Below, piece by piece: positions 4,314 through 31,055 of a DNA stretch of 38,145 nucleotides. How positions within the stretch are numbered: the first letter of the stretch is position 1; each line of letters starts with the position of its first letter. Both the position numbers and the translations under genes were made by a program. The DNA lies in IMG/VR virus record IMGVR_UViG_3300034062_006228, positions 1-38,145 of that record; one strand, 5' to 3'. Under the pieces are notes generated by a model, which was not told the origin of the DNA, ran no database searches, and worked only from the letters and a program-made list of their open reading frames with translations. The stretch is from a virus.

Positions 4314-4316
4314 AAA

Positions 4317-4925: not shown

Positions 4926-6589
4926 TAACATTAGTAACAGGATTATGGGATATTGGTAGAGACCAATTAACAGAAGGATGGTCAAGAACATACCAACACT
5001 ATTTAGATAAGTTTGAGAATCTACTCAAGTTAGATGTCAATATGATTATATTTGGTGACACTGACTTACAGAGATTTGTAGAACAAAGAAGAGATTCACA
5101 CAATACACAATTTGTTGTTAGAACAAAAGATTGGTTTATCAACAACGAGTTTTATCCAAAGATACAAAAGATAAGACAAGACCCAAATTGGTTCAATCAA
5201 GTTGGTTGGTTAAAAGATTCCACCCAAGCAAAACTTGAGATATATAATCCATTGGTTATGTCCAAAATGTTCTTACTAAATGACGCAAGAATATTAGACA
5301 AGTTCAACTCAGATTATATGTTTTGGATTGACGCAGGTATTACAAACACAATTCATCCTGGTTATTTCACACACGATAAAGTATTAGACAAATTACCGAA
5401 ATATACTGATAGATTCCATTTTGTATGTTTCCCTTATGAAACAACAACTGAGATTCACGGATTTGAAATAAATGCGATGAATAATTACACCAAAACAAAA
5501 ACGAATAGAGTTGCAAGGGGTGGATTCTTTGGTGGAAAAAAAGAAAGAATCAATGATATGAACTCATTGTATTATATGTTACTTAATGATTCATTATCAA
5601 AAGGATATATGGGTACTGAAGAATCTATATTCACAATAATGACTTATCTATATCCCCAACATATCAACTATTCAATGATAGAGGGTAATGGATTGATGGG
5701 TAAGTTTTTTGAAGATTTGAAGAACGACACATTAGAAGTATTAAACGAAACACCTGAACCAGTAAAATATCAAAGTAATGATATATCTAAAGTTGGTTTA
5801 TATGTTATCACATTTAACTCACCAAAACAATTTGAAACTTTAATAAAATCAATGTTAGAATATGATAGTGATTTTATAACCAAACCAAGGAAGTTTTTGT
5901 TGGACAACTCTACTGATTTATCGACAACACCAAGATACAAAGAGTTATGTGAACAATATGGATTTGAACATATTAAGAAAGATAATATTGGTATAATGGG
6001 TGGAAGAATATTTGTTGCCGAACACTTTAATGAATCTGATTTAGATTATTACTTTTGGTTCGAGGATGATATGTTTTTTTATCCAAAAAATGAAACTTGT
6101 AAAAATGGGTTTAATCGATTGGTAAAAAATTTATATTCAAAAAGTTTAGAAATAATAAACAAGGAGAAATATGATTTTCTGAAGTTAAACTTTACAGAAT
6201 TTTATGGCGACAATAGTACTCAATGGGCTTGGTATAACGTACCACAAGATTTTAGAAAACAACATTGGCCAAACAACCAAAGACTACCTGAGTTGGGTTT
6301 AGATCCGAATGCTCCAAAAACTGAATTCAAAAATATAAAAATACATAAGGGTTTACCATATACTGAAGGTGAAGTTTATTTATGTAATTGGCCAATTATT
6401 TTAAGTAAGGAAGGTAACTTTAAATGTTATCTTGACACAAGATGGGCACATCCTTTTGAACAAACTCTTATGTCTCATTGTTATCAACAAACAATTAAGG
6501 GAACTATTAAACCTGGTTTATTGTTAATAACACCAACGGAGCACAATCGATTTGACCATTACGATGGGAAACTTAGAAAAGAAAATTAA
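4922..6589 (+). CDS. Two-domain glycosyltransferase: HtrL/YibB-like plus GT2-like
   Basis: Residues 1 to about 285 resemble the HtrL/YibB (WlaTC) family: LVTGLWDIGRD at the start, a Lys-containing middle (VMSKMFLL) and FWIDAGI (Asp137) as the probable metal site. From about residue 291 (VGLYVITFNSPKQF) a second, GT-A/GT2-like domain begins. It carries a DNS step in a region where GT2 enzymes bind nucleotide, and FWFEDDMFFY (Glu381-Asp382-Asp383) as a DxD-like site. Fusion of two transferases suggests consecutive sugar additions. It is the last gene of the cassette; a Bacteroidota-type promoter and a noncoding RNA follow. The N-terminal call is firmer than the C-terminal one. Confidence 0.72.
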   Translation: MITLVTGLWDIGRDQLTEGWSRTYQHYLDKFENLLKLDVNMIIFGDTDLQRFVEQRRDSHNTQFVVRTKDWFINNEFYPKIQKIRQDPNWFNQVGWLKDSTQAKLEIYNPLVMSKMFLLNDARILDKFNSDYMFWIDAGITNTIHPGYFTHDKVLDKLPKYTDRFHFVCFPYETTTEIHGFEINAMNNYTKTKTNRVARGGFFGGKKERINDMNSLYYMLLNDSLSKGYMGTEESIFTIMTYLYPQHINYSMIEGNGLMGKFFEDLKNDTLEVLNETPEPVKYQSNDISKVGLYVITFNSPKQFETLIKSMLEYDSDFITKPRKFLLDNSTDLSTTPRYKELCEQYGFEHIKKDNIGIMGGRIFVAEHFNESDLDYYFWFEDDMFFYPKNETCKNGFNRLVKNLYSKSLEIINKEKYDFLKLNFTEFYGDNSTQWAWYNVPQDFRKQHWPNNQRLPELGLDPNAPKTEFKNIKIHKGLPYTEGEVYLCNWPIILSKEGNFKCYLDTRWAHPFEQTLMSHCYQQTIKGTIKPGLLLITPTEHNRFDHYDGKLRKEN

Positions 6590-6639: not shown

Positions 6640-6832
6640 AACAATCAAGGGTTGATGACTTACCACAAAAAGTTAGGGTGATGGAAAATCATTGGTGGAC
6701 GAAAAAGATACATAGGTAAAATACATCGAAAGATGGTGTCCATTGGGTCCCTCTGCAAGTCCCGAGCAGGCGTAACGACTATACGACAGTTAGTTCAAAA
6801 AAGGATGGAAATAATTTTTCTATCCTTTTTTT
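6640..6832 (+). ncRNA. Putative stand-alone structured RNA with a group I intron-like core motif
   Basis: No credible plus-strand reading frame lies between 6590 and 6832, yet a promoter precedes the region and a strong hairpin plus T-run ends it. Visible helices: ACCA/TGGT enclosing TGAT-GGAAA-ATCA near 6662-6697; TGGAC/GTCCA (about 6695-6734) enclosing CATC-GAAA-GATG, a GNRA tetraloop hairpin at 6724-6735; and CTGC/GCAG around 6752-6768. Next come GTAACGACTATACGACAG bases at 6772-6789, very like the conserved R element (P7/P3) of group I introns such as T4 td. I could not find the matching P7 3' strand (a TAGTC-type S element) before the terminator. It is therefore a relic, a truncated core or a different RNA class. 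The 3' end overlaps the end of the minus-strand gene. Confidence 0.5.
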
Positions 6833-7414
6833 GTTTTCAAATATTTTTATCCTAGTACAATTATGTGTATCACTATATAATCTTTCTCCCTTTATTTGTG
6901 TAACTAATCTTATACGATAGGTTTTTTTACCGATGGGGAAAATATTTATAATCATACTATATGGAACTTTTTTTCCGTTTGGTAATGGGCTATTTAAATT
7001 TATAAGTTCAAAGCATGGATTGGGTTTACTATTCCAATCATTTTTTCTTACTAAATCTACCAATTTTTCATCAATAACTTTGAACAATAAATAAACACCA
7101 TCATCTAAATCAGGGTCAAATATATTTTCATTATTTTTGTACTCAGGTTCCATTTTCCTATGAAGTCTTTGTAACCAATGTGTTGTTGGTTCAATGTTAA
7201 ATTTAAAATTTCCAGTTTCATAGTATTCGCTATCACCTGAATTTCTTTTTATTTTATTATTAATATAATTTTCCTCTTTCTTAAAGATTGGTGCATTTGC
7301 TTGAGCTTCGCCTAAAATAAAATAATTTTTTAGTTGTTGATAGGGAACTTCAACAAGTTGGATATCATCAAACAAAAATTCTTCCCTCAATATTTTTTGT
7401 ATCATTTTTCTCAT
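6779..7414 (-). CDS. Hypothetical protein with putative capsid-targeting N-terminus
   Basis: A 211-residue protein I do not recognise. It begins MRKMIQKILREE, a short basic amphipathic helix ending in L-x-E. This is nearly the same eleven-residue pattern that opens the unrelated HAD protein at 30066. The remainder mixes alpha and beta: charged middle (EPTTHWLQRLHRKMEPEY) and beta-type C-terminal half (SMIINIFPIG, YRIRLVTQIKG). An ATAAATAT (ATATTTAT on the coding strand) ends six bases before the ATG. It is the only minus-strand gene between two plus-strand blocks. Its final codons overlap the terminator and group I-like motif of the opposing RNA, so its C-terminus may be recently acquired. 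Head-packaged cargo is an inference from the tag alone. Confidence 0.7.
   Translation of the reverse strand: MRKMIQKILREEFLFDDIQLVEVPYQQLKNYFILGEAQANAPIFKKEENYINNKIKRNSGDSEYYETGNFKFNIEPTTHWLQRLHRKMEPEYKNNENIFDPDLDDGVYLLFKVIDEKLVDLVRKNDWNSKPNPCFELINLNSPLPNGKKVPYSMIINIFPIGKKTYRIRLVTQIKGERLYSDTHNCTRIKIFENKKRIEKLFPSFFELTVV
6797..6832 (+). terminator. Intrinsic terminator of the putative RNA
   Basis: AAAAAAGGAT (6797-6806) pairs with ATCC plus the following T-run (6822-6831), extended inward by a GGAAA/TTTCT arm with one wobble pair and a roughly five-base loop. About 15 pairs followed by T residues. The A-run on the other side makes it potentially bidirectional. It lies inside the last codons of the minus-strand gene. 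Confidence 0.65.
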
Positions 7415-7420
7415 ACTAAA

Positions 7421-7428
7421 ATAAATAT
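7421..7428 (-). promoter_or_regulatory. ATATTTAT phage promoter-like motif
   Basis: Read on the minus strand this is ATATTTAT, ending six bases before the ATG of the 6779-7414 gene. The same oriented motif precedes several other genes. With so short a gap, any transcript would be leaderless or nearly so. Confidence 0.35.
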
Positions 7429-9863: not shown

Positions 9864-12590
9864 ATGGCAAACTTAACAGGAAAAACGATAGGTCAATTAG
9901 CATTATTAACTGGTATTACACAAGATACCTTATTTGCTGTTGAACTTAGTGGTGCAACTTATCATATACCATATTCAGGACTATCAGTTGGTGGTTCATA
10001 TGAGGAAGTAACTTACGATGAATTATATTCTTTATACTCAGGTGGAACTCTAACACCAGGTGGTTATTATCTGATTACCGATTTCCAATCAATTTATGAC
10101 CAACCTGATTTTGATTATAGCGGTCAACCAATTATTACTGGTAATTCAAAAACAGGTATAACTGAACCATTATTGGTGTTTGCAACAAGTTCAACAACAT
10201 TGTCAAATCAAGCTTTCTCACCATTATATCCAAAAGATAAGATTACCTATGACATTACTTTCACAACTACTGAAGTGAGTAATACACTAGCTAAAGGTAG
10301 AATTACAGAAAGAATTGATGAGTTCAATAATAGAACAGATTATGATAACAGAAATATATTATTCAAAAGATATCGCCTTTACACAATCAGACAAGGTGTT
10401 CCACTTAATGGGACAATAGAATTGCAATCAGATGGAACTGTATCAGGACAAAATACCACATTTACAGCATTGACAATTGGGGATGTAATTTTTATGGATG
10501 GTAATAGTCAATTGTATGAAATTACTGGTATAACTGATAATACAACAATGGGTGTTTCAGGTGATACAATTAATTCATTTGGTTGTTGTTCTGTATTCTA
10601 TAAAACAATAGAAGAAACAAATGGTACTGGTTACTTCAGTTTCAAAAGACCAAATGTAAAATCATCTGACTTTATCGAGTACACTACATTCGGTGATGCT
10701 ATATCTAATGACTATGCTAAAAATACTTATGTAGGTAATTTCGCAAACAACTATCAAAATGTGGGAACTTTCTTATTAGCAAACAATGTATTTTTAGAAG
10801 GTGCTTACGAAAGTAATAAGTTTGGTGATTATTGTTATAATAATACATTTGGTACTGATAATCAAAATAATATTTGGGGTGATTTTTGTTATAATAATGT
10901 GTCAACGAATGATATTGATGATAATATTATTGGTCAATATTTTAATAATAATTTAATAAACGCCAATATAACAAGTAATTTAATTGGTAATGACTTCAAT
11001 AATAATCAACTATTGACTGAAAATGGAGGTGATTTTGAAGATAACATAATTGGAAACGGATTCCAGAGTAATGTTATTTATTCTAGATTTTATAAAAATG
11101 AAATATTAGATAATTTTAATAAAAATATCATAGGTGATTTTGGTAATTTAGATAATTTTGAATTCTATAGAAATTACATTCGTAATAATTTTAACGAAAA
11201 TATCATAAAACGAGATTTTCAAAATAACCAAATAGGTACAAACTACCAATCAAATGAAATTAATGGCGAATTTCAGGGTAATACTATTTTAAATGGATTT
11301 AACAATAATACAACTGGTAGTTATTTTGCTTTAAATAATATTGGTAACGCATTTAATAACAATACTATATATGATGTTTTTTATCATAATACAACCGATT
11401 ATTATTTTAACGATAATATAATCAGTAATGATTTTAACACAAATAAAATAGGTACATATTTTACTGATAATAGACCTTCAAATAATGATTTATTCGGATG
11501 GATTGACTTATCAACAATATCAACAAGAACATATGATACATTAAGGACATCACTTAATAATAATGTTGGTAACTATATTTTAGGTAAAGAACTTGTGATG
11601 AGAGTTATATCAACATCACAATATTTTACAATTAAATTCACACAATGGACACAAGGTGGAAATGGTGGTGGATTCCAATATACAAGACAAGAATTTGATT
11701 CAAATGGAAACTCTCAAGGTAATAGTATAATATTTACAAAAACTAATAATGGTTCAGAGGTAGACGTTATTGTTCCTGGTGTTGTAGAATTAACAAGAGA
11801 TAGTCAAGGTGGGTTATATAACACAATAACTGACACTCCACCATTTAATAATCAATGGCCTGGTCCTGGTGACACCGAATGGAATTCAATATACACTCAA
11901 CCTAATAATGGTGAAAGATTTGCATACAATAAAATTGGTAATAATTTTAGGAATAACACAATAGGTAGTGATTTTGGTTATGGTCTTGGAGACCCATATG
12001 GTAATATTATAAATGATAATTTTGAAGATAACACTATTGGTCAATATGCTTATAATAATGTTATTGGTAATCAGTTTAGAGACAACACTATAGGTGATAA
12101 TTTTGAGGACAATAATATAAGTTCTGTTTTCCAATCTAACACAATTGGTAATAATTTCCAATGGAATGTTATAAATACAAGTATTAACTCAGTTAACTTT
12201 GCAATAAATCAAGAATCAATTACAGGTTTCACATATTCAGCACCTGGTTCTTCAGCAACAGATGGAACTTATAATGGTCTAACTGGAACAACAAATGGAA
12301 TTGGTGTTAATGCGACATTTGATGTGGTGGTTTCCTCAAGTGCGGTAACAAGTGTATCAATTGTAAATCAAGGTAATTTCTATCAAGTTAATGACACAAT
12401 ATTGATTTTAGGTTCTCAAATTGGTGGTACTGATTCTGTTGATGATGTGACAATTACAATTACAACAATTATTGAACCTTCGGTATATGAAACATATACT
12501 TGTCAGATTTTTGAGAGACAAGGTGGAAATAAGAGATTATCGTACTATGACTCTTCAGATGTACTAAACATAACAGATGTAAACTTATAA
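9864..12590 (+). CDS. Tail fibre-like protein with nine-residue Asn-rich solenoid repeats
   Basis: Residues 1-280 contain an N-terminal module (KTIGQLALLTGI; VTYDELYSLYSGG; GGYYLITDFQSIYD; SPLYPKDKITYDI). Two blocks (about 290-540 and 686-776) are tandem nine-residue units such as TIGDNFEDN, VIGNQFRDN and TIGNNFQWN. They place hydrophobic residues at fixed positions and form Asn ladders, as expected of a right-handed beta-solenoid. Between the blocks sits an inserted globular domain (about 543-685) with FTIKFTQWTQGGNGGGFQYTR and GDTEWNSIY. The C-terminus (about 786-880) carries a beta module (VSIVNQGNFYQVNDTILILG) also present in the next protein. Probably a surface-exposed fibre or spike. 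The repeat is in the protein; the DNA copies differ too much to be a simple DNA repeat. Confidence 0.65.
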   Translation: MANLTGKTIGQLALLTGITQDTLFAVELSGATYHIPYSGLSVGGSYEEVTYDELYSLYSGGTLTPGGYYLITDFQSIYDQPDFDYSGQPIITGNSKTGITEPLLVFATSSTTLSNQAFSPLYPKDKITYDITFTTTEVSNTLAKGRITERIDEFNNRTDYDNRNILFKRYRLYTIRQGVPLNGTIELQSDGTVSGQNTTFTALTIGDVIFMDGNSQLYEITGITDNTTMGVSGDTINSFGCCSVFYKTIEETNGTGYFSFKRPNVKSSDFIEYTTFGDAISNDYAKNTYVGNFANNYQNVGTFLLANNVFLEGAYESNKFGDYCYNNTFGTDNQNNIWGDFCYNNVSTNDIDDNIIGQYFNNNLINANITSNLIGNDFNNNQLLTENGGDFEDNIIGNGFQSNVIYSRFYKNEILDNFNKNIIGDFGNLDNFEFYRNYIRNNFNENIIKRDFQNNQIGTNYQSNEINGEFQGNTILNGFNNNTTGSYFALNNIGNAFNNNTIYDVFYHNTTDYYFNDNIISNDFNTNKIGTYFTDNRPSNNDLFGWIDLSTISTRTYDTLRTSLNNNVGNYILGKELVMRVISTSQYFTIKFTQWTQGGNGGGFQYTRQEFDSNGNSQGNSIIFTKTNNGSEVDVIVPGVVELTRDSQGGLYNTITDTPPFNNQWPGPGDTEWNSIYTQPNNGERFAYNKIGNNFRNNTIGSDFGYGLGDPYGNIINDNFEDNTIGQYAYNNVIGNQFRDNTIGDNFEDNNISSVFQSNTIGNNFQWNVINTSINSVNFAINQESITGFTYSAPGSSATDGTYNGLTGTTNGIGVNATFDVVVSSSAVTSVSIVNQGNFYQVNDTILILGSQIGGTDSVDDVTITITTIIEPSVYETYTCQIFERQGGNKRLSYYDSSDVLNITDVNL

Positions 12591-16935: not shown

Positions 16936-17298
16936 ATGAAGAAGATAGTTAAATTAACTGAAAATGATTTAATCAAATTGGTTAAAAGAGTTATTAACGA
17001 AAGTGAAGAAAAAGATTTTGATGTTGATAACATTGATGGTGTTGAAAAATGGTCATATATAGAATCAGCACTTAAAAAACCTGAACTTGATAGTATTAAA
17101 GAAGGGGAATGGAATGCTCATCACTCTACCTTAATTTTCAAACACAAGGGCACTATTTACGTTGCACCATCAACTAAACATAATAAAGAAAAATGTGAAG
17201 AATTTTTTGGTAGTCGAAAAGAAGGTTTAGGTGTTCCACAACTTAATGAAAAGAGTATGTGGCATGCTAAATCAGCTTATGATGATTTTTGGAAATAA
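16936..17298 (+). CDS. Small protein with putative capsid-targeting N-terminus
   Basis: A 120-residue protein. Its first 22 residues run MKKIVKLTEND then LIKLVKRVINE: a basic amphipathic helix ending in I-N-E, with an additional L-T-E at 7-9. This fits the [I/L]-x-E rule of T4 prohead protease sites. The part after the tag is a small acidic-then-basic domain (VEKWSYIESALKKPEL; WNAHHSTLIFKHKG; FFGSRKEGLGVPQL) I cannot assign. The A-rich leader is typical here, but no ATATTTAT motif precedes it, so it may be read through from the polymerase 41 bases upstream. A bidirectional terminator follows. Packaged head protein is a hypothesis. Confidence 0.65.
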   Translation: MKKIVKLTENDLIKLVKRVINESEEKDFDVDNIDGVEKWSYIESALKKPELDSIKEGEWNAHHSTLIFKHKGTIYVAPSTKHNKEKCEEFFGSRKEGLGVPQLNEKSMWHAKSAYDDFWK

Positions 17299-18845: not shown

Positions 18846-20717
18846 TTAACACATAATCTCACCTTGATATTTTTTAAGGAAAGAGTCTGATATTTGTTTA
18901 TCGTTTTTAGTTAAAACGTTTGACCCATAGGTATATTTGTATGTTTCAATTTTACCATTCAAATCAAATACACGGAATCTGATTGATAATCTAAGTTCAT
19001 CACAGCCTCTTTGTCCTTTGTTTGACCAATAAAAATAAATATTATTGATTGGTACTATTATATTATTATCAAAAATAACTCCTGCAAGTTTTTCTCTAAT
19101 TTTATTAAGATACTCTTGTCCATTTTTTTTAACAAAATCATATATATGTCTAATCATTACATTATATAAGTCACTATGAGTTTGTTTAAATGTTTTCAAA
19201 GTAGATTGTTTGAAAATTGAAAAGAATTCAGATAAATAACTATCAATTTCTACGTCCATTTTTTTGACCTCAAAATGAGAATTAGCTGGGAATATTTCTT
19301 TTTGAACTAACTCACCATTAACTAATTCCTCAATATATAATGGTTCTTTACTAACTAAATCTGTTTTGATTGGTGGTATTTCACTATTTAACGAATTCGT
19401 AACGCAAGTTTTAATTTTTTTCAAAGTATTTGCAAATTCTTGTTTTTTACTTTTAACATCATCAATCATAGTGAATAAATTTGATACATCACCTGGGTCA
19501 CAAGAATAATTAAGTTCTAATTTAGTTTGTTTAATTTCAAATTGTTTACCCTCAAATGATTTTTCATATTTAGCATATTCTAATTCTCGAACTTGTCTTA
19601 AAACTTCGTTCAAATCATTACTTATAATATCTTGGTCTTTTATTTTTAATAATTTTTTCTTTACTACAGATTCTGAATAATTATCGTCAGCTATAAAATC
19701 ACTTATTATTTTTAAAAAATTTATAGTTCTATCTGAGTTTTCCCCATATAATGCAACATTAAAAATTTTTCTTAATGCTGAAGTGTTTCTAACATTAAAA
19801 AATTTAACTATTCTTTCAGTTGCATCATTTAAATCCTTAACCAATTGTTCGTCACCAATTTCATTTCTTAATTCTATTAAATCACAATACACTTTTTTAT
19901 TTTCATCAGATGTATTTTTTTTATTACAAAAATAATTTAAATAATCTTTTTCAAATTCGTTTTTATTAAACATTGACAATTGGTCATCTTCTAATAATAA
20001 CAAAAAATCTTTCTTAGTTATAGTATAAGATTCCTCAATTTTCTTTTTTGTTTTTAATTCATAAATTGAATTAACATAATCCCAATTTACAACACTCCAA
20101 AAATTTTTGATATAATCATCTCTTTTGTTTTGATATTTCAAATAATATGCGTGCTCCCATAAATCTAATCCCAATAAAGGATAACCACCACCTTCTACAA
20201 CGTTCATAAGTGGGTTATCTTGATTTGGTGTTGTCATAATCTTCAACTTGTTGTTTTTAGTTAAAACTAACCAACACCAACCTGAACCAAATCTTTCTAA
20301 TGAAATTTCTTGGAATTGTTTTTTAAAATTATTAAATGAACCAAAATCTTTATTTATTTTTTTGAGAATTTCACCTTTTAATACTTTTTTATCAGGTGTT
20401 AACATTTTCCAAAATAAAGAATGGTTAAAAGCACCACCACCATTGTTTCTAATAATTTTTGGGAATTTACTTATCTTGGTAATAATATCCTCTAACCCTA
20501 GTTCTTTGTACTCTTTTTTTGATAGAGCATCAACAAGTTTTTCAACATAACCTTTATAATGTTTGTTGTAGTGAACTTTCATTGTTTTTTCATCAATGAA
20601 TCTAGTCAGAGAGTCAAATCCATATGGTAATTTATCGATACCAATTTTTTTGGTCTCTAATAATAAGTCGTTAGTTTTTTCTAATACTTCTTGTATTAAT
20701 TTAATCCTTTTATCCAT
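18846..20717 (-). CDS. Superoxide dismutase (Fe/Mn type) fused to a large unknown domain, with putative capsid-targeting tag
   Basis: The ATG at 20717 is preferred over an upstream TTG (20744) that overlaps the helicase stop and would add nine residues. Residues 1-10 (MDKRIKLIQE) form a basic tag ending I-Q-E. Residues about 27-220 form a full Fe/Mn superoxide dismutase: LPYGFDSL, VHYNKHYKGYV, FNHSLFW, FGSGWCWLV, LDLWEHAYYLKYQN and FWSVVNWDYV. The four metal ligands are present (His49, His99, Asp185, His189), as are the gateway Tyr57 and a Mn-type Gln (Gln166 in NQDNPLM), so activity is expected, probably with Mn. Residues about 225-623 are an unrecognised Lys-rich helical domain with a beta-rich end; standard dismutases are about 200 residues. 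It lies 23 bases after the helicase gene. Confidence 0.85.
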   Translation of the reverse strand: MDKRIKLIQEVLEKTNDLLLETKKIGIDKLPYGFDSLTRFIDEKTMKVHYNKHYKGYVEKLVDALSKKEYKELGLEDIITKISKFPKIIRNNGGGAFNHSLFWKMLTPDKKVLKGEILKKINKDFGSFNNFKKQFQEISLERFGSGWCWLVLTKNNKLKIMTTPNQDNPLMNVVEGGGYPLLGLDLWEHAYYLKYQNKRDDYIKNFWSVVNWDYVNSIYELKTKKKIEESYTITKKDFLLLLEDDQLSMFNKNEFEKDYLNYFCNKKNTSDENKKVYCDLIELRNEIGDEQLVKDLNDATERIVKFFNVRNTSALRKIFNVALYGENSDRTINFLKIISDFIADDNYSESVVKKKLLKIKDQDIISNDLNEVLRQVRELEYAKYEKSFEGKQFEIKQTKLELNYSCDPGDVSNLFTMIDDVKSKKQEFANTLKKIKTCVTNSLNSEIPPIKTDLVSKEPLYIEELVNGELVQKEIFPANSHFEVKKMDVEIDSYLSEFFSIFKQSTLKTFKQTHSDLYNVMIRHIYDFVKKNGQEYLNKIREKLAGVIFDNNIIVPINNIYFYWSNKGQRGCDELRLSIRFRVFDLNGKIETYKYTYGSNVLTKNDKQISDSFLKKYQGEIMC

Positions 20718-20722
20718 AGAAC

Positions 20723-20741
20723 ATAAATATTCTATAAATAT
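20723..20741 (-). promoter_or_regulatory. Tandem ATATTTAT phage promoter-like motifs
   Basis: Two copies on the minus strand (20734-20741 and 20723-20730), ending 16 and 5 bases before the dismutase ATG. They overlap the end of the helicase gene and could let the dismutase be transcribed separately. Confidence 0.4.
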
Positions 20742-23668
20742 CAATTCAACGAATTAATCTTATTCATAATTTGTTCAATGAAGTCAGCCTTATCCAAATT
20801 ATCACCCATAACAGTATCAATTATGTTTTTCTTATTGATTAACATATCGTAAATTACACCTTCGATTGTATTCTCAAATATTGGATAGTAAACAGACACA
20901 CAATTTTTTTGACCATATCTATAAGCTCTGTCTTCAGCTTGTTGATGATGTGCAGGGACAAATGAAAGGTCATTAAATATAACCGCTTCTCCCGCGGTAA
21001 GTGTAATACCAACACCTGCGGCTTGTAGATTTCCAACAAATACTTTTACTTTATCATTATCTTGGAATTGGTCTACAGCATATTGTCTTTGAACCTTTGA
21101 ACAAGTCCCATCCAAATAAACTGCTTGTTTCCCAAAGTGGGAATGTATTTTGTGAAGTGTGTCTGTAAAGTTTGTAAAAATTATAACTTTTTTTCCTTGC
21201 TCCAAAATATTTTCAGCAACTTCAATAGTGTTAGATATTTTCTCTTCAGCAACTACTTGTCTCACTTTCATCAACTTATTAAATTGAACTGTAAGTGATT
21301 TTGATTCCTCAGGATTCTTAGAATACCAATTATAATAATCACCCATTAATTCCTCATATTGTTTAGATTTTAATCTCAAATACACAGGAGTTATAATTTT
21401 TTCAGGTAAATCTAATACCTCAGTTTTCAATCTTCTTAAGACTTGTCTTGATGTTCTATCTCTTAGTTCTTCTAAGTTTGATGCACCATTAACATTCCAA
21501 ACTTTCCTATTACCCGCTTTGAATTGATATCCTTGACAATAACGAATGACATATGCCATCCAATTTTGTGCAACAGGACTTTCGATAAGATTCAATAAAT
21601 TATAATAATTAATTGGTCTTGAGGTCATAGGTGTACCTGTTAATAACCAAAGATACTCAACATCTTTAACAAAACTATTAATTAATTTTGTACGTTGGGC
21701 TTGTGGATTTGAAATGTAGTGAGCTTCATCAATTATGATTAAGTCAAAATTACCTTTTGTAATTAAAGAGTTTTCTTTATCTTTTAAATCATAAAAGTTT
21801 TTTAGGATATCATAGTTTACAATTACAAAATCGTGTTTTGTTGAGAAGTTTTTACCTTCACAAATATAAACACTTCTATCTGTATAATTTCTTATTTCCC
21901 TTTCCCAATTTATCTTCAGTGAAGCGGGACATATTATTAATATTTTTTTTGCATTTGTTTCTAGTGCCGCTAAAATAGTTGATGTTGTATTGTGAGTTAC
22001 GATAGCATTTTCTGTAATATATAATTTGTCTGGTGCATCAACTGAAATACATATAGCTTCACCTTTTTTTTCAAACTCTATATTTTTGATGTATCGTCCT
22101 ACCTTGTATTTTTTAGGTGTGTTATATTGTTCTTCTTTTCTTTTAAGTTTGAATGGATTCATACCTTCAGGTAATTTGATATTCACTCTGTAAGATTTTT
22201 GTCCATCTTTTTTAGTTCCTTTATATGTATATTTTGTTGTTCTTGATTTTTTTCTTGCTATACCACCCAAACTATGTACTATTTCAATAACATCGTCACA
22301 AAGTTGTTCTGACACAGTTGAGAATTCAGTCCCACTAAAATTACCATCAGTATCTTTACGACAACTACCATCAGTATCCATTAAACCTTTGAGTATTTTT
22401 AATCTATTTTCAACAGAAGTGTATTTGAATATATTTGGAATAAATTTGTTATAGGATTTAGTTCCCATTAATTTTAGTTGTTTCAAAACTTGAATTAACG
22501 GATTTAAATGACCACTAATTTTTGTTAATCTATAACCATATTTTGTACCTCGGCTCTCAACTATTTGAGTGTTATGTGGTAATGTGTCTCTAATATAGTC
22601 AACGATTTCTGAGTCAGCTGTTGTAAAATGAACTGAATCTTTACTAATCCCTCCATCACCTATAATTAACCCCAATAAATATGGGTTTATGGGTAAAGGA
22701 TTATTTACGAATTCGATTGGTTTTACAATTGGAATTTGCCATTTGTTGTTACCATCGTTTTCTTTGTAGTATGTTTTGTACTTGTAAATTTTGTTTATAT
22801 TGTTTTTAGTACCATTTATTTCTAAACTTAAATTTTTATCTAACATCTGTTCTACAGACAAAACAATCCCCTTTTTTTCTCTTTTATTTTTACTATTTTC
22901 ACCAAATGTTCTAGATTTGACACTAAAAAGATGTTCCTTACAGACTAATACTGATGTATTGTCATTGAATGTTACTCGGTATAAATCTTTAACTCCTTGT
23001 GGATATACACCAAGAACATTACATTTTTTACCATCACTACCAATAACTTCATCACCAACTTTCAATTCACCTATTGGTTTTCTTCCATATGGTGTAAAAA
23101 CCTTGTTTTCTATAAACTCCGCTTTACCCAAACCCATATCGTCAGCCAAAATAAACTTCTTACTACCAACCAATTTTTCAATTGCAATTTTTTGATGGTC
23201 AAGAGGAGGTCTATGATTATATTTGGAGTAGTCAATTTTTACTTCAATAGTATTATGAGTTTTAAGTAATGCCGCTTTTGGTAACCACATATCAGTTAAT
23301 GTGTCACCGGTGTTAAACTTACCCCAAATGTGATAAGATTTATCTTTATCAACTAATAATTTTTCAACCCATATGTCAGTTGGTACAACTAACATATTTT
23401 TTTCATCTGCAATTTTTTTTGCAAAGTAAGGTTCTATGTTGACCCACTTCTTGGCAACCTTTGGTTCAACTGAATTATAGTTAATAATATATTCAGCTTG
23501 TGAACGTGTGGGATAGAACTTTTTGTTAGTTTCTTTTAGATATTTCAATTTCAGAATATAATTGTTGTGACCATTATATTCATCTAAAATGTCTATAGCT
23601 TTTAGTTCTAGTAGATTTAATGTGTTACCTGATAAACTCAAAACAATTTTTAATATAAAAATAGTCAA
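20741..23668 (-). CDS. SNF2-family helicase/ATPase interrupted by an intein
   Basis: The mature protein (about 597 residues after removing 378 intein residues) is an SF2/SNF2-type ATPase. It has HQKIAIEKL, Walker A DDMGLGK|TTST (interrupted after Lys182), LIIIDEAH (DEAH box), LLTGTPMTS, and the C-terminal lobe with GVGITLTAGEAVIFNDL and QAEDRAYRYGQ. Such enzymes translocate on duplex DNA; in a phage this suggests replication-fork remodelling or recombination, a role T4 gives to UvsW. Without splicing the P-loop is broken, so the enzyme depends on the intein. No ATG lies near the N-terminus: TTG at 23668 is used, with TTG at 23641 (giving MSLSGNTLNLLEL) an equal or better candidate. First gene of the minus-strand block, divergent from 23688. 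Confidence 0.9.
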   Translation of the reverse strand: MTIFILKIVLSLSGNTLNLLELKAIDILDEYNGHNNYILKLKYLKETNKKFYPTRSQAEYIINYNSVEPKVAKKWVNIEPYFAKKIADEKNMLVVPTDIWVEKLLVDKDKSYHIWGKFNTGDTLTDMWLPKAALLKTHNTIEVKIDYSKYNHRPPLDHQKIAIEKLVGSKKFILADDMGLGKAEFIENKVFTPYGRKPIGELKVGDEVIGSDGKKCNVLGVYPQGVKDLYRVTFNDNTSVLVCKEHLFSVKSRTFGENSKNKREKKGIVLSVEQMLDKNLSLEINGTKNNINKIYKYKTYYKENDGNNKWQIPIVKPIEFVNNPLPINPYLLGLIIGDGGISKDSVHFTTADSEIVDYIRDTLPHNTQIVESRGTKYGYRLTKISGHLNPLIQVLKQLKLMGTKSYNKFIPNIFKYTSVENRLKILKGLMDTDGSCRKDTDGNFSGTEFSTVSEQLCDDVIEIVHSLGGIARKKSRTTKYTYKGTKKDGQKSYRVNIKLPEGMNPFKLKRKEEQYNTPKKYKVGRYIKNIEFEKKGEAICISVDAPDKLYITENAIVTHNTTSTILAALETNAKKILIICPASLKINWEREIRNYTDRSVYICEGKNFSTKHDFVIVNYDILKNFYDLKDKENSLITKGNFDLIIIDEAHYISNPQAQRTKLINSFVKDVEYLWLLTGTPMTSRPINYYNLLNLIESPVAQNWMAYVIRYCQGYQFKAGNRKVWNVNGASNLEELRDRTSRQVLRRLKTEVLDLPEKIITPVYLRLKSKQYEELMGDYYNWYSKNPEESKSLTVQFNKLMKVRQVVAEEKISNTIEVAENILEQGKKVIIFTNFTDTLHKIHSHFGKQAVYLDGTCSKVQRQYAVDQFQDNDKVKVFVGNLQAAGVGITLTAGEAVIFNDLSFVPAHHQQAEDRAYRYGQKNCVSVYYPIFENTIEGVIYDMLINKKNIIDTVMGDNLDKADFIEQIMNKINSLN
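21989..23122 (-). other. Intein with LAGLIDADG homing endonuclease in the helicase Walker A motif
   Basis: Codons 183-560 of the host frame. The N-splice block begins Ala-Glu-Phe-Ile rather than Cys or Ser. Block B has CKEHLFSV (His246). Two LAGLIDADG motifs, LLGLIIGDGG (Asp338) and LKGLMDTDGS (Asp433), with a KFIPNIF block between them, indicate an active homing endonuclease. Block F reads EAICISVD with Cys540 at the F:4 position, and the end is VTHN followed by Thr561. Missing Cys1, Cys at F:4 and Thr at +1 are the marks of class 3 inteins, which splice through a branched intermediate on the F:4 Cys. The usual Trp of block B is Phe248 here. Inserted between Lys and Thr of GKT, a typical ATP-site target. 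Confidence 0.9.
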
Positions 23669-23687: not shown

Positions 23688-24200
23688 ATGACAAATAAAC
23701 TACCAATAACAAGGATAGGTAAATTCTTTGGTGCTGAGGATTATAATTTAGATTTATCCATCGGTGAGGAATGGTTATATGGGGATATGAACTTTACTGT
23801 CGTATTATATCGTGTTGACAGAATGAAAACTAAGACTGATGATGTATATGGTGAAGCGTTAAAAGATGGTATTAAGTTTCTCCCACCAATTGAACTGAAA
23901 GGTTTTGTACAAATATTAGCACCAGAAAATAAAAACTATGGTAATACTAAAATCAATCAAGTTGAACCTGGTAATATGAAATTCTCAGTCTATCAAAGAC
24001 AATTGGACGAGTTAGGTATTGATATTAATTTTGGTGATTATCTTGGATATTATGAAACAGAAGATAGAATCCGATATTATACTGTTAATAATGATGGTAG
24101 AGTAATTTCAGATAACAAACATAATTATGCTGGTTATAAACCTTATTATCGAACAATTATGGCATCAGCTGTTGTCGATAATGAATTTAGAGGATTATGA
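23688..24200 (+). CDS. Putative virion connector protein
   Basis: A 170-residue protein with mixed beta content (EEWLYGDMNFTVVLYRVDR; ELKGFVQILAPENKNYGN; FGDYLGYYETEDRIRYYTV), not assigned to a family with confidence. It lies directly upstream of tail-completion and sheath genes, where T4-type phages place neck and tail-terminator proteins, so a connector role is plausible. I recall similar proteins next to neck genes in marine phages, but this is not proof. Its stop overlaps the next gene's start by ATGA. The ATG is four bases after an ATATTTAT motif, so the message may be nearly leaderless. Confidence 0.5.
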   Translation: MTNKLPITRIGKFFGAEDYNLDLSIGEEWLYGDMNFTVVLYRVDRMKTKTDDVYGEALKDGIKFLPPIELKGFVQILAPENKNYGNTKINQVEPGNMKFSVYQRQLDELGIDINFGDYLGYYETEDRIRYYTVNNDGRVISDNKHNYAGYKPYYRTIMASAVVDNEFRGL

Positions 24201-25102
24201 AAATAATAATAACAGAATCGCAATATAAGATATTACTTGAACAACAAGTTAGTCAAGTTCAAGTACAATATGAAGATGGGTCAATCAAAATGGTAGATTA
24301 CCAAAAGTTTTATTATGGTCCCGATTTTAAACAATACAAATGGGATGGTAAGAAGTTTGTGTTTGATTATTCCAAAATATATCCAAATTGGAATAGTATG
24401 AATCAAACTGATAGGGATAAAGTAATTGCTAATCGAAAAAGAGTGAAAGCTTCAGGTTCTTATTCCCAACAACCAAACCTAATAAGTTTAGGATTAAATG
24501 AATTTAATGGTTATTTAAAAAATGTTGTTTGGGCTAATTTAACATTTGATAATATAGTTGAGGTAATTATAAAGTTAATGGAATTTTTACCACCACCATA
24601 TGGAGGTAAGGCAAACGTAAAAGCTGCTGGAGTTGCACATGGTGTTTCATATTTGTTAAGGTCTTTTTTATCAAAAACAACTGACGATATCACATCAAAC
24701 TTTGTTAATGCTATGTTTAAATTTTTTAGTGTAACATCAGGTACAAGTGTTCCGTTACCACCATCAAGTGTAGTAAATATTGCAAAAAAAATAGTATCAA
24801 TTTATCAAAAAATAAAAGATAAAATTACAAAATTAACAGACTTTAGTGCTTTAGCTGAATGGCTACAAGTTTCTTTGACATTTATAGTACAATATATCGG
24901 TGACCAAATTACTGGAATTATTCAAACAATAACCGAAAATATATTAAGTCCAATTATAAAAATGTTTGGTCAGTATAGCACAACATTAAGTACTTATTTA
25001 TCAAATGCTATTCAGTATTTAAATAAAATAAGTTCAACTTTAAAAAGTGCAAAACAAGCACTTTCATATGTAAAACAACAAGATCCAAATGCCTTTACCT
25101 AA
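24197..25102 (+). CDS. Hypothetical protein with putative capsid-targeting N-terminus and hydrophobic helices
   Basis: Begins MKIIITESQYKILLE: I-T-E at 5-7 and L-L-E at 13-15, both fitting a T4-type prohead protease site. After a Tyr/Lys-rich segment (YEDGSIKMVDYQKFYYGPDF) the C-terminal two thirds are long hydrophobic or amphipathic helices (VSYLLRSFLSK; FIVQYIGDQITGIIQTITEN; YLNKISSTLKSAKQALSYV). They lack charged breaks in places and could insert into a membrane or form a helical bundle. Such composition would suit a head-packed protein injected with DNA or a pore-like ejection protein; that is inference. It overlaps the previous gene by ATGA and the next by 14 bases, suggesting coupled translation. 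Not recognised as a known family. Confidence 0.6.
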   Translation: MKIIITESQYKILLEQQVSQVQVQYEDGSIKMVDYQKFYYGPDFKQYKWDGKKFVFDYSKIYPNWNSMNQTDRDKVIANRKRVKASGSYSQQPNLISLGLNEFNGYLKNVVWANLTFDNIVEVIIKLMEFLPPPYGGKANVKAAGVAHGVSYLLRSFLSKTTDDITSNFVNAMFKFFSVTSGTSVPLPPSSVVNIAKKIVSIYQKIKDKITKLTDFSALAEWLQVSLTFIVQYIGDQITGIIQTITENILSPIIKMFGQYSTTLSTYLSNAIQYLNKISSTLKSAKQALSYVKQQDPNAFT

Positions 25103-26365: not shown

Positions 26366-26373
26366 ATATTTAT
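26366..26373 (+). promoter_or_regulatory. ATATTTAT phage promoter-like motif for the tail sheath gene
   Basis: Reads taATATTTATctataaaa, 33 bases before the ATG at 26407. The long A-rich leader ends in aataaaaaATG without Shine-Dalgarno sequence. Confidence 0.45.
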
Positions 26374-26406: not shown

Positions 26407-29400
26407 ATGTCTAACAGTAAAGTATTTGTATCACCTGGTGTTTACACTTCAGAAGTGGACTTGAGTTTTGTATCTCAAAGTGTGGGTGTAACAACTTTAG
26501 GTATTGTTGGTGAAACTTTGAAGGGACCTGCTTTCGAACCAATTTTTATCACAAACTTCGATGAGTTTACAGCTTACTTTGGTGGAACTTCTCCTGAGAA
26601 ATTCATTAACACTCAAATTCCAAAATATGAAGCAGCATATATTGCTAAATCATATTTACAACAATCAAATCAACTATTCGTAACAAGAGTTTTAGGTCTT
26701 TCTGGTTATGATGCTGGACCTTCTTGGTCAATTACAACAGTTGCTAACGTTAACCAATCAACAGTTGGTTTTGAATGTACTAGTTCCTCAACTGTTAATT
26801 GTGTAACTCAATGTGTTCAATTTAATGTAGTACCTTATACAATTGATTTCACTGGTTGTACTAATAATCTTAATTCTATAGGATATAGTAATTTTAATAG
26901 TGCCGACATAATTGTTCCTGACTTATATAGTACATACGAACAATTTAATGGTTCTACATCAACTATTGATACAGATTTAAGAACACAAATTTTCAGTATT
27001 TTAAATACACCAGCTAATTCAGGATTTTCAATTAATTATTTTGGTGTTATTTCTGGTGAGACTTATGATAGTTTATCTGCTTATACTGCAAGTACAAATG
27101 TATTTGGAGTTGATAATGTAAGTTCTACATTAGCTGATTATACAGCTTCGGCTAATGACCCTTGGTATTATGCAACATTTGATAACATTGGTAACAATCA
27201 ATACACTGGTTATTCTTTCTATAATGTTGTTAGTAGTTTAACACAAACATCATCATTGTCAAATTGTGCATCTTTTTATAGTTATTCAGTTAGTTCATCA
27301 ACAATCAGTACAGTTGCTGGGTCAATTAATTATAATACAAATGTGATTAATATTTGTCTTCCTTCTACAGCAACAACTGCGGACACAACGGCAATGACAA
27401 TTAATTTCAGTGCTTGCACTAATCCAACGTTAAGTGGTATAACAAGTGGTGGTATAGTACAATCTGCAACAACAACTGGATATAATTTTAGTTCTTTAAC
27501 AAAATCATACACGATAATATCTGATGATTTATCAGCAACTTCAGCTTGGACAGTTAACTTACTTTTCACTGACCCTTGTGGTCTTTGTGCAACAGGGAAT
27601 ACTGGAACAATACAGACTGGTACAACGACAACTTGTTTCTCAGGAACAATAAGTGGTCAAACTTTTGTTTATACTGGTGATTCATATTCAAATTACGATG
27701 ATTTAGTAATAGCAACTTTAAGATCAAGAGGTTTGGCAACATATTCAACTGACGATGGTGCTGTATATGAAGTACAAGATTTAAATGATGTAACAATGGA
27801 TTGTACTGGAACTTATTCAGGTGTTACTAAAAATCCTTTTGCACCATTTGGTTTAAATGTTACAAATAAAGATGGACAGAATTTCTTCTTTGAAACTTCT
27901 TTCTTGAACTCAGATGTAAATTATATATCTAAAGTTTTTGGTCAATCTAACTTTGGTAAACCAAGAACTGTTGTACCTTTATTTGTTGAGGAAAGATTCC
28001 AATCTTTATTAACTTATGCTTATCGTAAAGGTTATATTAGAGGTTTGAATTGTAACTTAGTTGCGTTACCTGATGCAAGACAAGGATTAGATGCAACATC
28101 GATTGCTTGGTATCTAGAAAGATATCAATCACCAACATCACCTTGGGTTGTTTCTGAATTAAGAGGTAATAAAGTGTTTAACTTATTTAAGTTTACAACA
28201 ATTGCTGATGGGGATGCCGCAAATACAGAAGTTAAAATTTCAATTGCAAATATTTCATTTAACAATGGTACATTTGATGTATTAGTTAGAGATTTCTTTG
28301 ATGGTGATGCTAACCCAGTTGTAATTGAAAAATTCACTAATTGTTCTATGAACCCAGGTGAAAACAACTTTATCGCAAAGAAAATCGGTACAACTGATGG
28401 TGAATACCAATTGAATTCTAAATACATTATGGTTGAGATAAATGAGGATGCTCCAATTGACGCTTTACCTTGTGGTTTCTTAGGATTCACAATGAGAGAA
28501 TACGCCGGTGCAAAACCACCATTCCCAATTTATAAAACAAAATACGATTTCCCTGGTGAAGTAGTTTATAATCCACCTTTCGGATTAACTTCAGGTGCTG
28601 ATGATGCTTTGTTAAGTTCAGGTGACAATCCAAGAAGAGTATATTTGGGTATTTCAGATGAAATCGGATATGATGTTGATTTCTTTACATATAAAGGTAA
28701 AGTTCTTCCAACTGATGTTTGTAACGATACAACAGGTTCTGATTGGAATTATAGAACTCGTGGATTCCATATGGATAAAAATGCAAGTGGAATTACAATT
28801 CCGAATGCTTTTGTAACAAGTGGTACTTCAGCTTTCTTCGTTGGTTCTGCTGAATTTACTTCTGACCCAACATCAGAAACAAATCCATACTACAGACTAT
28901 TTGCTCGTAAGTTTACGCTATTATGTCAAGGTGGTTTTGATGGTTGGGATATTTATCGTGAGTATAGAACTAACCAAGATAGATTTGTATTGGGTAGAAC
29001 TGGTTACCTTAAAGGTGCTTGTACTTCGTTCAGATATCCAAATGCAACTGGTTGGGGTGCGTTCAAACGTATAACTGTTGGTAATAACACACAAGATTTT
29101 GCAAATACTGACTATTACGCTTACTTGTTAGGACAACAAACATTCTCAAATCCTGAAGCGGTTAATATAAATGTGTTTGTAACACCTGGTATAGATTATG
29201 TAAATCACTCAAATCTTGTAGAAGCTGCGATAGAAATGGTTGAGTTTAATAGAGCTGACTCAATTTATATCTGTACAACACCTGACTATAATATGTTTGT
29301 ACCATCAACTGGTGACCAATTAGATGTAATTTATCCACAAGAAGCTGTTGATAACTTAGAAGAAAGTGGAATTGACTCTAACTATACTGCAACATATTAT

Positions 29401-29997
29401 CCTTGGGTTCTTACGAGAGATACGGTTAATAATACACAAATCTATATTCCTGCAACAGCGGAAGTTTGTAGAAACTTGGCATTAACTGATAACATTGCTT
29501 TCCCTTGGTTTGCTGCGGCAGGTTACACTCGTGGTCTTGTTAATGCTGTCAAAGCGAGAAGAAAACTTACTCAAGAAGATAGAGATACTCTTTATAAAGG
29601 AAGACTTAATCCAATTGCAACTTTCTCGGATGTGGGAACAGTAATTTGGGGTAACAAAACTCTACAAATAAGAGAATCAGCATTAGATAGAATTAATGTA
29701 AGAAGATTGTTACTACAAGCAAGAAAACTTATATCTGCGGTTTCAGTTAGATTGTTATTTGAACAAAATGATGAAAAAGTAAGACAAGATTTCTTAGACG
29801 CAGTTAATCCAATTTTAGATGCGATTAGAAGAGATAGAGGTTTATACGATTTCCGTGTAACAGTTTCATCTGATACTGCCGACTTAGATAGAAATCAAAT
29901 GACAGGTAAGATTTATATCAAACCTACAAAATCTTTAGAGTTTATTGATATAACATTCTATATAACTCCAACAGGTGCATCATTCGAAAATATCTAA
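26407..29997 (+). CDS. Contractile tail sheath protein (T4 gp18-like) with a large surface insertion
   Basis: The N-terminus FVSPGVYTSEVDLS, then GIVGETLKGPAFEP and FDEFTAYFGG, is diagnostic of myovirus tail sheaths. The C-terminal domain (DRINVRRLLLQARKLISAVS; FLDAVNPILDAIRRDRGLYD; TGKIYIKPTKSLEFIDITFY) is the conserved sheath-contraction domain. At 1196 residues it is far longer than T4 gp18 (659). Residues about 115-430 form an added Ser/Thr/Asn-rich domain with many Cys residues (CTSSSTVNCVTQC; CGLCATGNTG), placed where gp18 carries its protruding outer domain. It would decorate the outside of the tail. Motifs resume at DDLVIATLRSRG (about 437). It has its own promoter-like motif and is followed by a very strong terminator. 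Confidence 0.95.
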   Translation: MSNSKVFVSPGVYTSEVDLSFVSQSVGVTTLGIVGETLKGPAFEPIFITNFDEFTAYFGGTSPEKFINTQIPKYEAAYIAKSYLQQSNQLFVTRVLGLSGYDAGPSWSITTVANVNQSTVGFECTSSSTVNCVTQCVQFNVVPYTIDFTGCTNNLNSIGYSNFNSADIIVPDLYSTYEQFNGSTSTIDTDLRTQIFSILNTPANSGFSINYFGVISGETYDSLSAYTASTNVFGVDNVSSTLADYTASANDPWYYATFDNIGNNQYTGYSFYNVVSSLTQTSSLSNCASFYSYSVSSSTISTVAGSINYNTNVINICLPSTATTADTTAMTINFSACTNPTLSGITSGGIVQSATTTGYNFSSLTKSYTIISDDLSATSAWTVNLLFTDPCGLCATGNTGTIQTGTTTTCFSGTISGQTFVYTGDSYSNYDDLVIATLRSRGLATYSTDDGAVYEVQDLNDVTMDCTGTYSGVTKNPFAPFGLNVTNKDGQNFFFETSFLNSDVNYISKVFGQSNFGKPRTVVPLFVEERFQSLLTYAYRKGYIRGLNCNLVALPDARQGLDATSIAWYLERYQSPTSPWVVSELRGNKVFNLFKFTTIADGDAANTEVKISIANISFNNGTFDVLVRDFFDGDANPVVIEKFTNCSMNPGENNFIAKKIGTTDGEYQLNSKYIMVEINEDAPIDALPCGFLGFTMREYAGAKPPFPIYKTKYDFPGEVVYNPPFGLTSGADDALLSSGDNPRRVYLGISDEIGYDVDFFTYKGKVLPTDVCNDTTGSDWNYRTRGFHMDKNASGITIPNAFVTSGTSAFFVGSAEFTSDPTSETNPYYRLFARKFTLLCQGGFDGWDIYREYRTNQDRFVLGRTGYLKGACTSFRYPNATGWGAFKRITVGNNTQDFANTDYYAYLLGQQTFSNPEAVNINVFVTPGIDYVNHSNLVEAAIEMVEFNRADSIYICTTPDYNMFVPSTGDQLDVIYPQEAVDNLEESGIDSNYTATYYPWVLTRDTVNNTQIYIPATAEVCRNLALTDNIAFPWFAAAGYTRGLVNAVKARRKLTQEDRDTLYKGRLNPIATFSDVGTVIWGNKTLQIRESALDRINVRRLLLQARKLISAVSVRLLFEQNDEKVRQDFLDAVNPILDAIRRDRGLYDFRVTVSSDTADLDRNQMTGKIYIKPTKSLEFIDITFYITPTGASFENI

Positions 29998-30053: not shown

Positions 30054-30061
30054 ATATTTAT
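30054..30061 (+). promoter_or_regulatory. ATATTTAT phage promoter-like motif
   Basis: Directly after the terminator and only four bases before the ATG at 30066; a start site at the usual distance would give a leaderless message. Confidence 0.4.
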
Positions 30062-30065
30062 TGTT

Positions 30066-30950
30066 ATGAAAAGTTTAATTAAAAAAATTTTAAAAGAATA
30101 TCAAGAAATTGAAATACCAATGAAGTATTACGCTTTTGATTGGGATGACAACTTGATGTATATGCCAACACAAATTTATTTATTAGATGATGATGGCGAT
30201 GAAGTTGGTATGGGAACAGAAGATTTTGCTGAACATAGAGTTGATATTGGAAAAAAACCATTTGAGTATAATGGTTTTACCATTGTAAATTTTGCTCCAG
30301 ACCCATTTAGAGATTTTAGAACCACTGGTGATAGAAAATTTCTTGAGGATGTTATGACAGCAAAATTAGCTGTAGATGCTGCGTGGCCTGATTTTGTTGA
30401 GGCAATCAATAATGGCTCACTATTTTCAATTATTACGGCTAGAGGTCACAGACCAAGTACTTTAATGTTAGGTGTAAAAAAACTTATTGAATCTAATAGG
30501 GGTGGTATAGACTCAGATATGTTGTATGATTCTTTACTAAGAATGAGAAAAAATGCTGGTGAAAAACCTGAAGACAAGGAAACTGAAATAATGAAATATC
30601 TTTTATTATGTAGGTTCTACCCTGTTTCATATGGTGCTGGTTCTGCTCAAAATCCTGAAGAAGCTAAAATTGAAGCTATGAACAAATTTAAGAATTATGT
30701 TCAAAGTCAGGCTGAAAAACTTAATATGAGAGTTGCGAAAAAAATAGAAAATGAAATCAGTAATAAGTTTATACCTATTATTGGATTTTCTGACGATGAC
30801 CCAAGAAATATTAAAGCTATGAGTAAAGGAGTAAAAGATGTTAAAATATTTTCAACACACGGAGGTAAGAAAAAAGAATACAAACCAGAAGAAGATGAAT
30901 TACAATTAGAAAATAAAATAAGAAAAATATTATATAATATAATTAAATAA
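30066..30950 (+). CDS. HAD-superfamily hydrolase with putative capsid-targeting N-terminus
   Basis: Begins MKSLIKKILKE, a basic amphipathic segment ending L-K-E and nearly identical in pattern to the start of the 6779-7414 protein. HAD motifs follow: I, FDWDDNL (nucleophile Asp25, acid/base Asp27); II, SIITARG (Thr124); IV, FSDDDPRN (Asp243-Asp245). So it probably is an active Mg-dependent phosphatase or nucleotidase; the substrate cannot be told. The T4 PseT phosphatase domain is also HAD, but no kinase domain is present. The C-terminus (ENKIRKILYNIIK) is another basic helix. It sits between sheath and tube genes with its own terminator and promoter motif on the upstream side, so it appears to be an independent insertion in the tail cluster. 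Confidence 0.75.
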   Translation: MKSLIKKILKEYQEIEIPMKYYAFDWDDNLMYMPTQIYLLDDDGDEVGMGTEDFAEHRVDIGKKPFEYNGFTIVNFAPDPFRDFRTTGDRKFLEDVMTAKLAVDAAWPDFVEAINNGSLFSIITARGHRPSTLMLGVKKLIESNRGGIDSDMLYDSLLRMRKNAGEKPEDKETEIMKYLLLCRFYPVSYGAGSAQNPEEAKIEAMNKFKNYVQSQAEKLNMRVAKKIENEISNKFIPIIGFSDDDPRNIKAMSKGVKDVKIFSTHGGKKKEYKPEEDELQLENKIRKILYNIIK

Positions 30951-31047: not shown

Positions 31048-31055
31048 ATATTTAT
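31048..31055 (+). promoter_or_regulatory. ATATTTAT phage promoter-like motif (extended form)
   Basis: TATTTATAATAAAA form, 37 bases before the tail tube ATG. The preceding bases 30951-31047 are extremely AT-rich with TATA runs and a seven-base inverted repeat (GTTCTAA/TTAGAAC); no gene is seen there. Confidence 0.45.

Follow-up and report, generated by a model that had tools for sequence, protein, structure and literature searches.

The capsid-targeting sequence (CTS) peptides of phage T4 and their use are classical knowledge. They are short N-terminal peptides ending in [LI]-x-E, which are carried by the unrelated internal proteins IPI, IPII and IPIII and go together with the protease gp21. 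The cleavage motif of gp21 in T4 is L/I-x-E, and for the IPIII peptide it was determined by experiment that residues 4 and 7 (positions -6 and -3) serve targeting and residues 8 and 10 (positions -2 and 0) serve processing (PMC9026906). All three internal proteins inhibit type IV restriction enzymes (PMC12373910). Propeptides are also found on T4 gp24, which starts MAKINELLRE/S (the slash marks a known or putative cut here and below) and from which gp21 removes the first 10 residues (PMC9958956), and on gp21 itself, which starts MNEPQLLIE; gp24 is a shell protein and not cargo. The ADP-ribosyltransferases of the T4 Alt type are enzymes packed in the head and processed by gp21 at both ends. In phage P1, an N-terminal signal sends the anti-defence protein DarB to the capsid (PMC9024508). 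For the ejection proteins of phiKZ and SPN3US, a Gp21-like protease is described that cleaves the propeptides off many head proteins behind x-E.

Here we describe a locus that is probably of this kind on a 38-kb linear IMG/VR record (38,145 nucleotides, called the window below), which is a fragment of a phage genome without the head genes. The phage is T4-like, and the window encodes a tail sheath (26407-29997), a gp19-type tube (31093), a family B polymerase (14177), a gp26-type baseplate protein (31625; Pfam T4_baseplate) and a UvsW-like helicase (20741). Among the near-complete relatives that were found, G001 (194 kb) is the closest; its sheath, tube, polymerase and helicase are 82-90% identical to those of the window (sheath 83%, polymerase 89%). 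Some other features of the window were observed in passing. The helicase gene (20741-23668, minus strand) has an apparent intein at its Walker A motif (LADDMGLGK, then AEFIENKVFTPYG ... AIVTHN, then TT), the genes in a row at 885-6589 look, by their sequences, glycosyltransferase-like and methyltransferase-like and would be of the surface-modification type, 9864-12590 encodes a 908-aa protein with long Asn-rich repeat runs (NxFxxN) that is perhaps a beta-helical fibre, and the C-terminal part of 22-828 resembles a self-cleaving tail-fibre chaperone of the S74 type (DERMKDIQG...).

The N-terminal segments studied here are most probably capsid-targeting propeptides of a T4-style capsid-cargo system that is greatly expanded and diversified. 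They are like the T4 peptides in being short, N-terminal, placed on unrelated proteins and terminated by [LI]-x-E, and also in the hydrophobic residues at -6 and -3, the presence of an S77 protease and gp23 in relatives and the arrangement of variable cargo in arrays. T4 has three internal proteins and one tag type, whereas here several unlike tags sit on dozens of genes in a genome, the cargo includes long enzymes, internal tags occur as putative linkers, and packaging is predicted from the genes. The P1 Dar system, likened by its description, also has an N-terminal capsid signal but is without a separate T4-like scaffold. The phiKZ motif is S/A-x-E instead of [IL]xE, and the accessible portions of the phiKZ and SPN3US sources describe no tag common to many unrelated cargos. 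To T4 Alt there is a weak likeness only, in a class A tagged protein on a Prevotella MAG contig (L792:6395-6958) with a weak Tox-ART-HYD1 match (E 0.006). The logic is known from T4; the several tag types and the far larger scale appear to be new.

In the mechanism that we propose, the basic amphipathic tag would bind the assembling scaffold core of a T4-like prohead, a gp21-type (S77) protease would cut behind the Glu of [IL]-x-E and free the body inside the head, and the freed body would be ejected into the bacterium together with the DNA. The tag types A, B, C, E and F and the T4 type (MK..[YF]xxF[IL]xE) would serve one purpose and be exchanged among cargo genes, and internal tags would be cut as linkers in multi-domain cargo. 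Early action of the cargo against the host, like the core binding, cleavage, packaging and injection that precede it, is a step which we infer.

A sequence-only reading of the window had pointed to five ORFs with similar N-termini, and all of them are present: 6779-7414 (minus strand), 16936-17298, 18846-20717 (minus strand; its start ATG sits 27 nt within a longer ORF opening with TTG), 24197-25102 and 30066-30950. The starts are basic as described (net charge +1 to +3 over residues 2-12), each with at least one [IL]xE in the first 22 residues, and the bodies are unrelated; Pfam shows an Fe/Mn superoxide dismutase (SOD) in 18846-20717 (E 4e-42) and nothing solid in the other four. The two starts in which a common pattern had been noticed fit M[KR]xxIxKIL[KR]E, here called class C. 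One is the tag MKSLIKKILKE of the HAD protein (30066..30098, plus strand), whose Glu11 is nearly invariant in an 11-sequence ortholog alignment. The other belongs to the 211-aa protein 6779-7414, and this tag, MRKMIQKILRE (7382..7414, minus strand), is like the type C N-terminus MEKLIRKILFE/E of the G001 protein starting at 95144. The 120-aa protein 16936-17298 carries the class A tag MKKIVKLTENDLIKLVKRVINE (16936..17001, plus strand), near the consensus of 138 distinct tags, and the 301-aa protein 24197-25102, which begins MKIIITESQ, carries the class B tag MKIIITESQYKILLE (24197..24241, plus strand; MK[IL][IL]ITESQ). The window contains at least three tag types, with A once, B once and C twice. 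The idea of one shared tag holds in part: the N-termini are real and have a common geometry, but they belong to several types and the SOD start belongs to none.

Tag A has the consensus MKK[IV][IV][RK]LTE[SN][DE]LxxIVKRV[IL]xE, with the rumen jumbo-phage variant MNKKLIRLTESDLHRIVKESVNRILKE. In tag B another, less strict [IL]xE comes after MKIIITESQ; tag C is MxxxIxKIL[RK]E; tag E is MKKQILSEEFxRMQKLAG and then [IL]xE (full form MKKQILSEEFxRMQKLAGIITE); tag F, of Flavobacterium phage immuto, is MENFDLKKFLVENKLT; and the T4-type tag of a 642-kb megaphage is M..[KR][YF]xxF[IL]xE. The class C search expression includes plain false positives (DnaG, an aminotransferase). In IMG/VR, tags A, B and E occur on at least 398 proteins with at least 220 non-homologous body clusters (A on at least 141 proteins and 100 clusters, E on at least 127 and 62, B on at least 130 and 63). 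T4-type N-termini number 31 in the megaphage LR756502 against 5 in an internal control. The coding DNA of class A differs at a median of 30% of bases, with synonymous codons used freely, so that the peptide was kept while its codons diverged, which indicates selection on the peptide and rules out recent duplication of the tag at the DNA level. The prokaryote contigs (257 Gb) gave 7 tag matches and the viral set at least 120, and general cellular signals are thereby ruled out; the tags are largely confined to phages. Among cultured phages searched by tblastn, tag A had no match and tag E matched immuto only. Three tag strings gave no occurrence in 5.4 million open-access papers, and the tags seem to be undescribed in that literature. 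A class D-like start, ITEEEKxRILxLH, was also seen in G001, G002, G003 and G015 (e.g. G002 120545, 158672, 160227), mostly on proteins with peptidoglycan-binding, GH19 or TseH domains. It is probably related to the other tags; it was set aside as a cargo tag because its companions are cell-wall enzymes, and it may have another role.

The protein at 30066-30950 has no significant Pfam match. Its earlier assignment as a HAD hydrolase is borne out by the invariant motifs DWDDN, TARG and GFSDDD and by an AlphaFold model with the HAD fold, and the cargo body (30099..30950, plus strand) is a HAD-fold phosphatase of a conserved core gene (579 relatives) lying between the tail sheath and tail tube genes. 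In the PDB the model comes closest to the HAD phosphatase domain of T4 Pnkp, with 131 residues aligned at an rmsd of 3.5 and a VIA-align Z of 9.2 (5uj0); 2ia5 and 1ltq tie with this entry. As this match is to the T4 polynucleotide kinase phosphatase domain, we would guess at a possible role in nucleic-acid end repair. Two orthologs are tagless (MKINPIDLIPAVK, MKIKPIDLIPAVK), and one subgroup has a short [IV]xE/G start only, without the helix pattern.

The dismutase proposed earlier is confirmed by Sod_Fe_N and Sod_Fe_C, both above the Pfam cut-off. Its gene reads on the minus strand. It begins with a propeptide of its own, MDKRIKLIQEVLEKTNDLLLE (20655..20717), which belongs to none of the tag types and whose final LLE adjoins the conserved KKIGIDKLP. 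The Fe/Mn superoxide dismutase domain follows (about residues 22-229; 20031..20654), then an internal class-B-like linker, SYTITKKDFLLLLE (19989..20030; SYTITKKDFLLLLE/DD at the junction), and then a second domain (residues 244-623; 18846..19988). This domain of 380 residues (AlphaFold pLDDT 77) has no recognised family and contains the invariant motifs HFEVKKMD and YWSNKGQRGC; the PDB fold search returned helical designed proteins only (Z about 6), and Foldseek gave none below E 0.9. The junction matches that of L470-L472, where the second domain follows a different N-terminal domain and is joined to it by an internal tag that is clearly of class B (ILTEKQLKFINE, IIITEEQYEHLNE). These internal tags may be linkers at which multi-domain proteins (e.g. 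SOD-linker-D2) are cut, and it is our guess that the SOD may blunt the oxidative response. Several tags on one chain were also found in acidic proteins of G001 (C1:6525-8123, minus strand) and G003 (C1:306427-307839): there is one tag at the N-terminus and a class A tag in the interior, and the C-terminus has the motif LNEEFxRxKQLLG, which resembles tag E. This protein is possibly a core or hub protein and the source of the tags. An origin of the tags as simple copies of a scaffold segment was rejected, the internal PSSM matches being multi-tag proteins and not scaffold.

It can also be supposed that the tags do lead to the prohead core and are cleaved at that place, but that most of their carriers are head core or structural parts, as T4 gp67, gp68 and gp24 are, and not delivered effectors. 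We consider this improbable, although T4 gp24 and gp21 bear such propeptides without being effectors, the acidic three-tag protein resembles a core component and the HAD gene belongs to the conserved core, since the tagged sets look like variable effectors: they reach dozens of genes per genome, vary between genomes and form arrays, with 17 near-adjacent pairs where random placement gives 7 on average. In a Pfam scan of 100 tagged proteins only 11 families were matched, peptidoglycan-binding foremost, and most proteins were without a family. The SOD, HAD and DHH enzymes are also unlikely as shell parts.

The upstream regions connect the tagged genes with virion genes. The element ATATTTAT is present within 60 bases upstream of 43 of 99 tagged genes against 178 of 1081 other genes (p 3e-9). 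We regard it as a candidate promoter of virion genes. In the window it stands before the HAD gene (30054..30061, plus strand), before 6779-7414 (7421..7428, minus strand), twice before the SOD gene (20723..20741, minus strand) and before the tail sheath gene (26366..26373, plus strand), while TATTTAT precedes the tail tube gene (31048-31055) and the gene at 32624. The TATTTAT core lies upstream of the sheath, tube, S77 and terminase genes in relatives, and also of the polymerase gene, so it is not strictly late. With regard to gene position, a class B gene of G003 is placed between the S77 protease and the scaffold-like genes, and the tagged genes of immuto cluster at 101-119 kb, directly ahead of terminase, portal, S77 and gp23.

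The absence of a gp21-type protease had been named as a finding that would count against the capsid-cargo interpretation, and G001 encodes both Peptidase_S77 and gp23. The 38-kb window has no S77 gene, its head genes lying outside the fragment. S77 is present in G001, G002, G003, Mel-JY01 and immuto, and S77 with gp23 in 5 of 5 rumen contigs of 401-413 kb. Of 25 large contigs bearing A or E tags, 18 encode it, as do 8 of 15 random large contigs, and since it is so frequent in the latter, the co-occurrence does not discriminate; it fails to refute and proves nothing. Some large tagged contigs, possibly incomplete, are without S77, e.g. the 317-kb G060. G015, G018 and G019, which are tagged and lack S77, have the sheath, tube and other genes in common with the window and match none of the four head landmarks (S77, gp23, terminase, portal), as is expected of fragments. 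At the position of the T4 gp23 cut site (E65/A, in LTE/A), the aligned gp23 proteins of the clade have INE/A, ISE/A or VSE/A, with INE/A predicted in the closest near-complete relative, so that the predicted specificity of the protease fits the tags.

The tag ends are predicted to be cut after the Glu of [IL]xE, and several properties suggest this reading. In class A, position 20 is I, L or V, position 21 is variable and position 22 is Glu in 127 of 138 distinct tags, so that a free middle residue stands between near-fixed flanks. In class E, [ILVM]xE is retained despite a register shift of 0-2 residues relative to the helix; 5 of 121 lack it, all ending at KLAG or just past it. In the HAD family, [IL]xE is found in 74 of 84 distinct N-terminal extensions (shuffles: mean 31, maximum 43), and in the SOD orthologs the extensions vary while [IL]xE always abuts the domain (LLE/TKKIGIDKLP, ITE/AKKIGIDKLP, LSE/AKKIGIDKLP, IQE/MKKIGIERLP). 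The motif itself matches that of gp21. Its background is about 1.2 per 100 residues, and the scaffold-like genes have about twice the [IL]xE density of the proteome.

The positions used for targeting in T4 have a counterpart in the tags as well. Most tags fit PHI-x-x-PHI-[IL]-x-E, with hydrophobic residues (PHI) at positions -6 and -3 relative to the Glu: the fraction is 0.88 in class A, 0.84 in class C, 0.85 in HAD tags and 0.82 for F[ILV]xE in the megaphage, against 0.13 where [IL]xE lies within protein bodies and 0.44 where F[ILV]xE lies within those of the megaphage; in class E it is 0.68, partly fixed by the search pattern. The SOD start and class B do not fit. In a generic scan with PHIxxPHI[IL]xE, T4, Syn9 and P-SSM2 were barely above controls, and the pattern alone is no classifier. 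Tags A, C and E have this positional pattern in common with the T4 peptide MKTYQEFIAEA, the T4-type tags of the megaphage resemble that peptide directly, and the class C pattern also matches the start of T4 gp24. More telling for capsid targeting are the cargo orthologs which exchange their tags, the T4 type among them. A DHH-like protein has tag A (L230), tag B (G015) or a T4-type tag (megaphage) on bodies 35-54% identical over 400-500 residues, and HAD orthologs have a class C or a T4-type tag (MDILRFDQFIRE/S). In a 0.6-Mb megaphage both the HAD phosphatase and the DHH protein have T4-type tags (MDILRFDQFIRE), with A, B or C tags on their orthologs elsewhere, and related starts occur in two more megaphages. 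Other orthologous cargo shows the swaps A/E, A/B, A/C, C/E and E/F. This replacement of A, B and C by T4-type tags on the same cargo makes it very improbable that the basic amphipathic N-termini have a different role, such as attachment to a host protein, to a membrane or elsewhere in the virion (tail, baseplate), with [IL]xE as a part of the binding motif. Class D-like starts on peptidoglycan-binding proteins and the location of two window cargo genes among tail genes would agree with such binding, but the retention of [IL]xE in class E despite the shifted register and its place exactly at the domain border of the SOD speak for cleavage.

The similarity of the tags is significant through the relatives and not through the window alone, and this is decisive. 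All N-termini (residues 2-25) were scored pairwise per genome with homologous-body pairs excluded, and internal and shuffled segments served as controls. In the window alone no N-terminal pair exceeded the controls (best BLOSUM score 29). At scores of at least 50 there were 59 non-homologous pairs in G003 against 0 in internal and shuffled controls, 70 against 0 in G015 and 6 against 0 in G018 (for both, internal segments were the only control), and 8 against 0 in immuto. When T4 was run through the same scoring, the known internal-protein tag pair MKTYQEFIAEA was recovered; in the cyanophages Syn9 and P-SSM2 it gave no tag of type A, B, C or E, and P-SSM2 has a few T4-type starts (MKSFKQFLEEA, MKSFSQFLTET). 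Chance or composition, by which AT-rich genes would start Lys/Ile-rich and contain the common [IL]xE, agrees with the window-only result but is hardly credible in view of the G003 and G015 counts and of a near-fixed 22-residue consensus on at least 100 unrelated body clusters, being refuted for A, B and E by controls and consensus and for C by recurrence, with the SOD start alone excepted.

The capsid-cargo interpretation first suggested for the window is thus supported by the conservation of the tags, by their exchange on orthologous cargo, in which T4-type tags take part, by a candidate promoter in common with virion genes and by near-absence from bacterial genomes. There is perhaps an even chance that phages related to T4, ranging from viruses of Bacteroidota to megaphages of 0.7 Mb, have an exchangeable address code with several independently shaped tags that one kind of scaffold and protease recognises, and that they inject hundreds of mostly unknown effectors, some of them as polyproteins which the prohead protease cuts at internal tags in the capsid. 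The hypothesis is testable in a cultured phage, Flavobacterium phage immuto. If it is true, the tags would provide new addresses for loading proteins into capsids, and the at least 220 unrelated families would form a sequence-based catalogue of candidate anti-defence proteins from uncultured phages. From a few N-terminal residues one could then tell, among thousands of unknown phage proteins, those that reach the host as infection begins.
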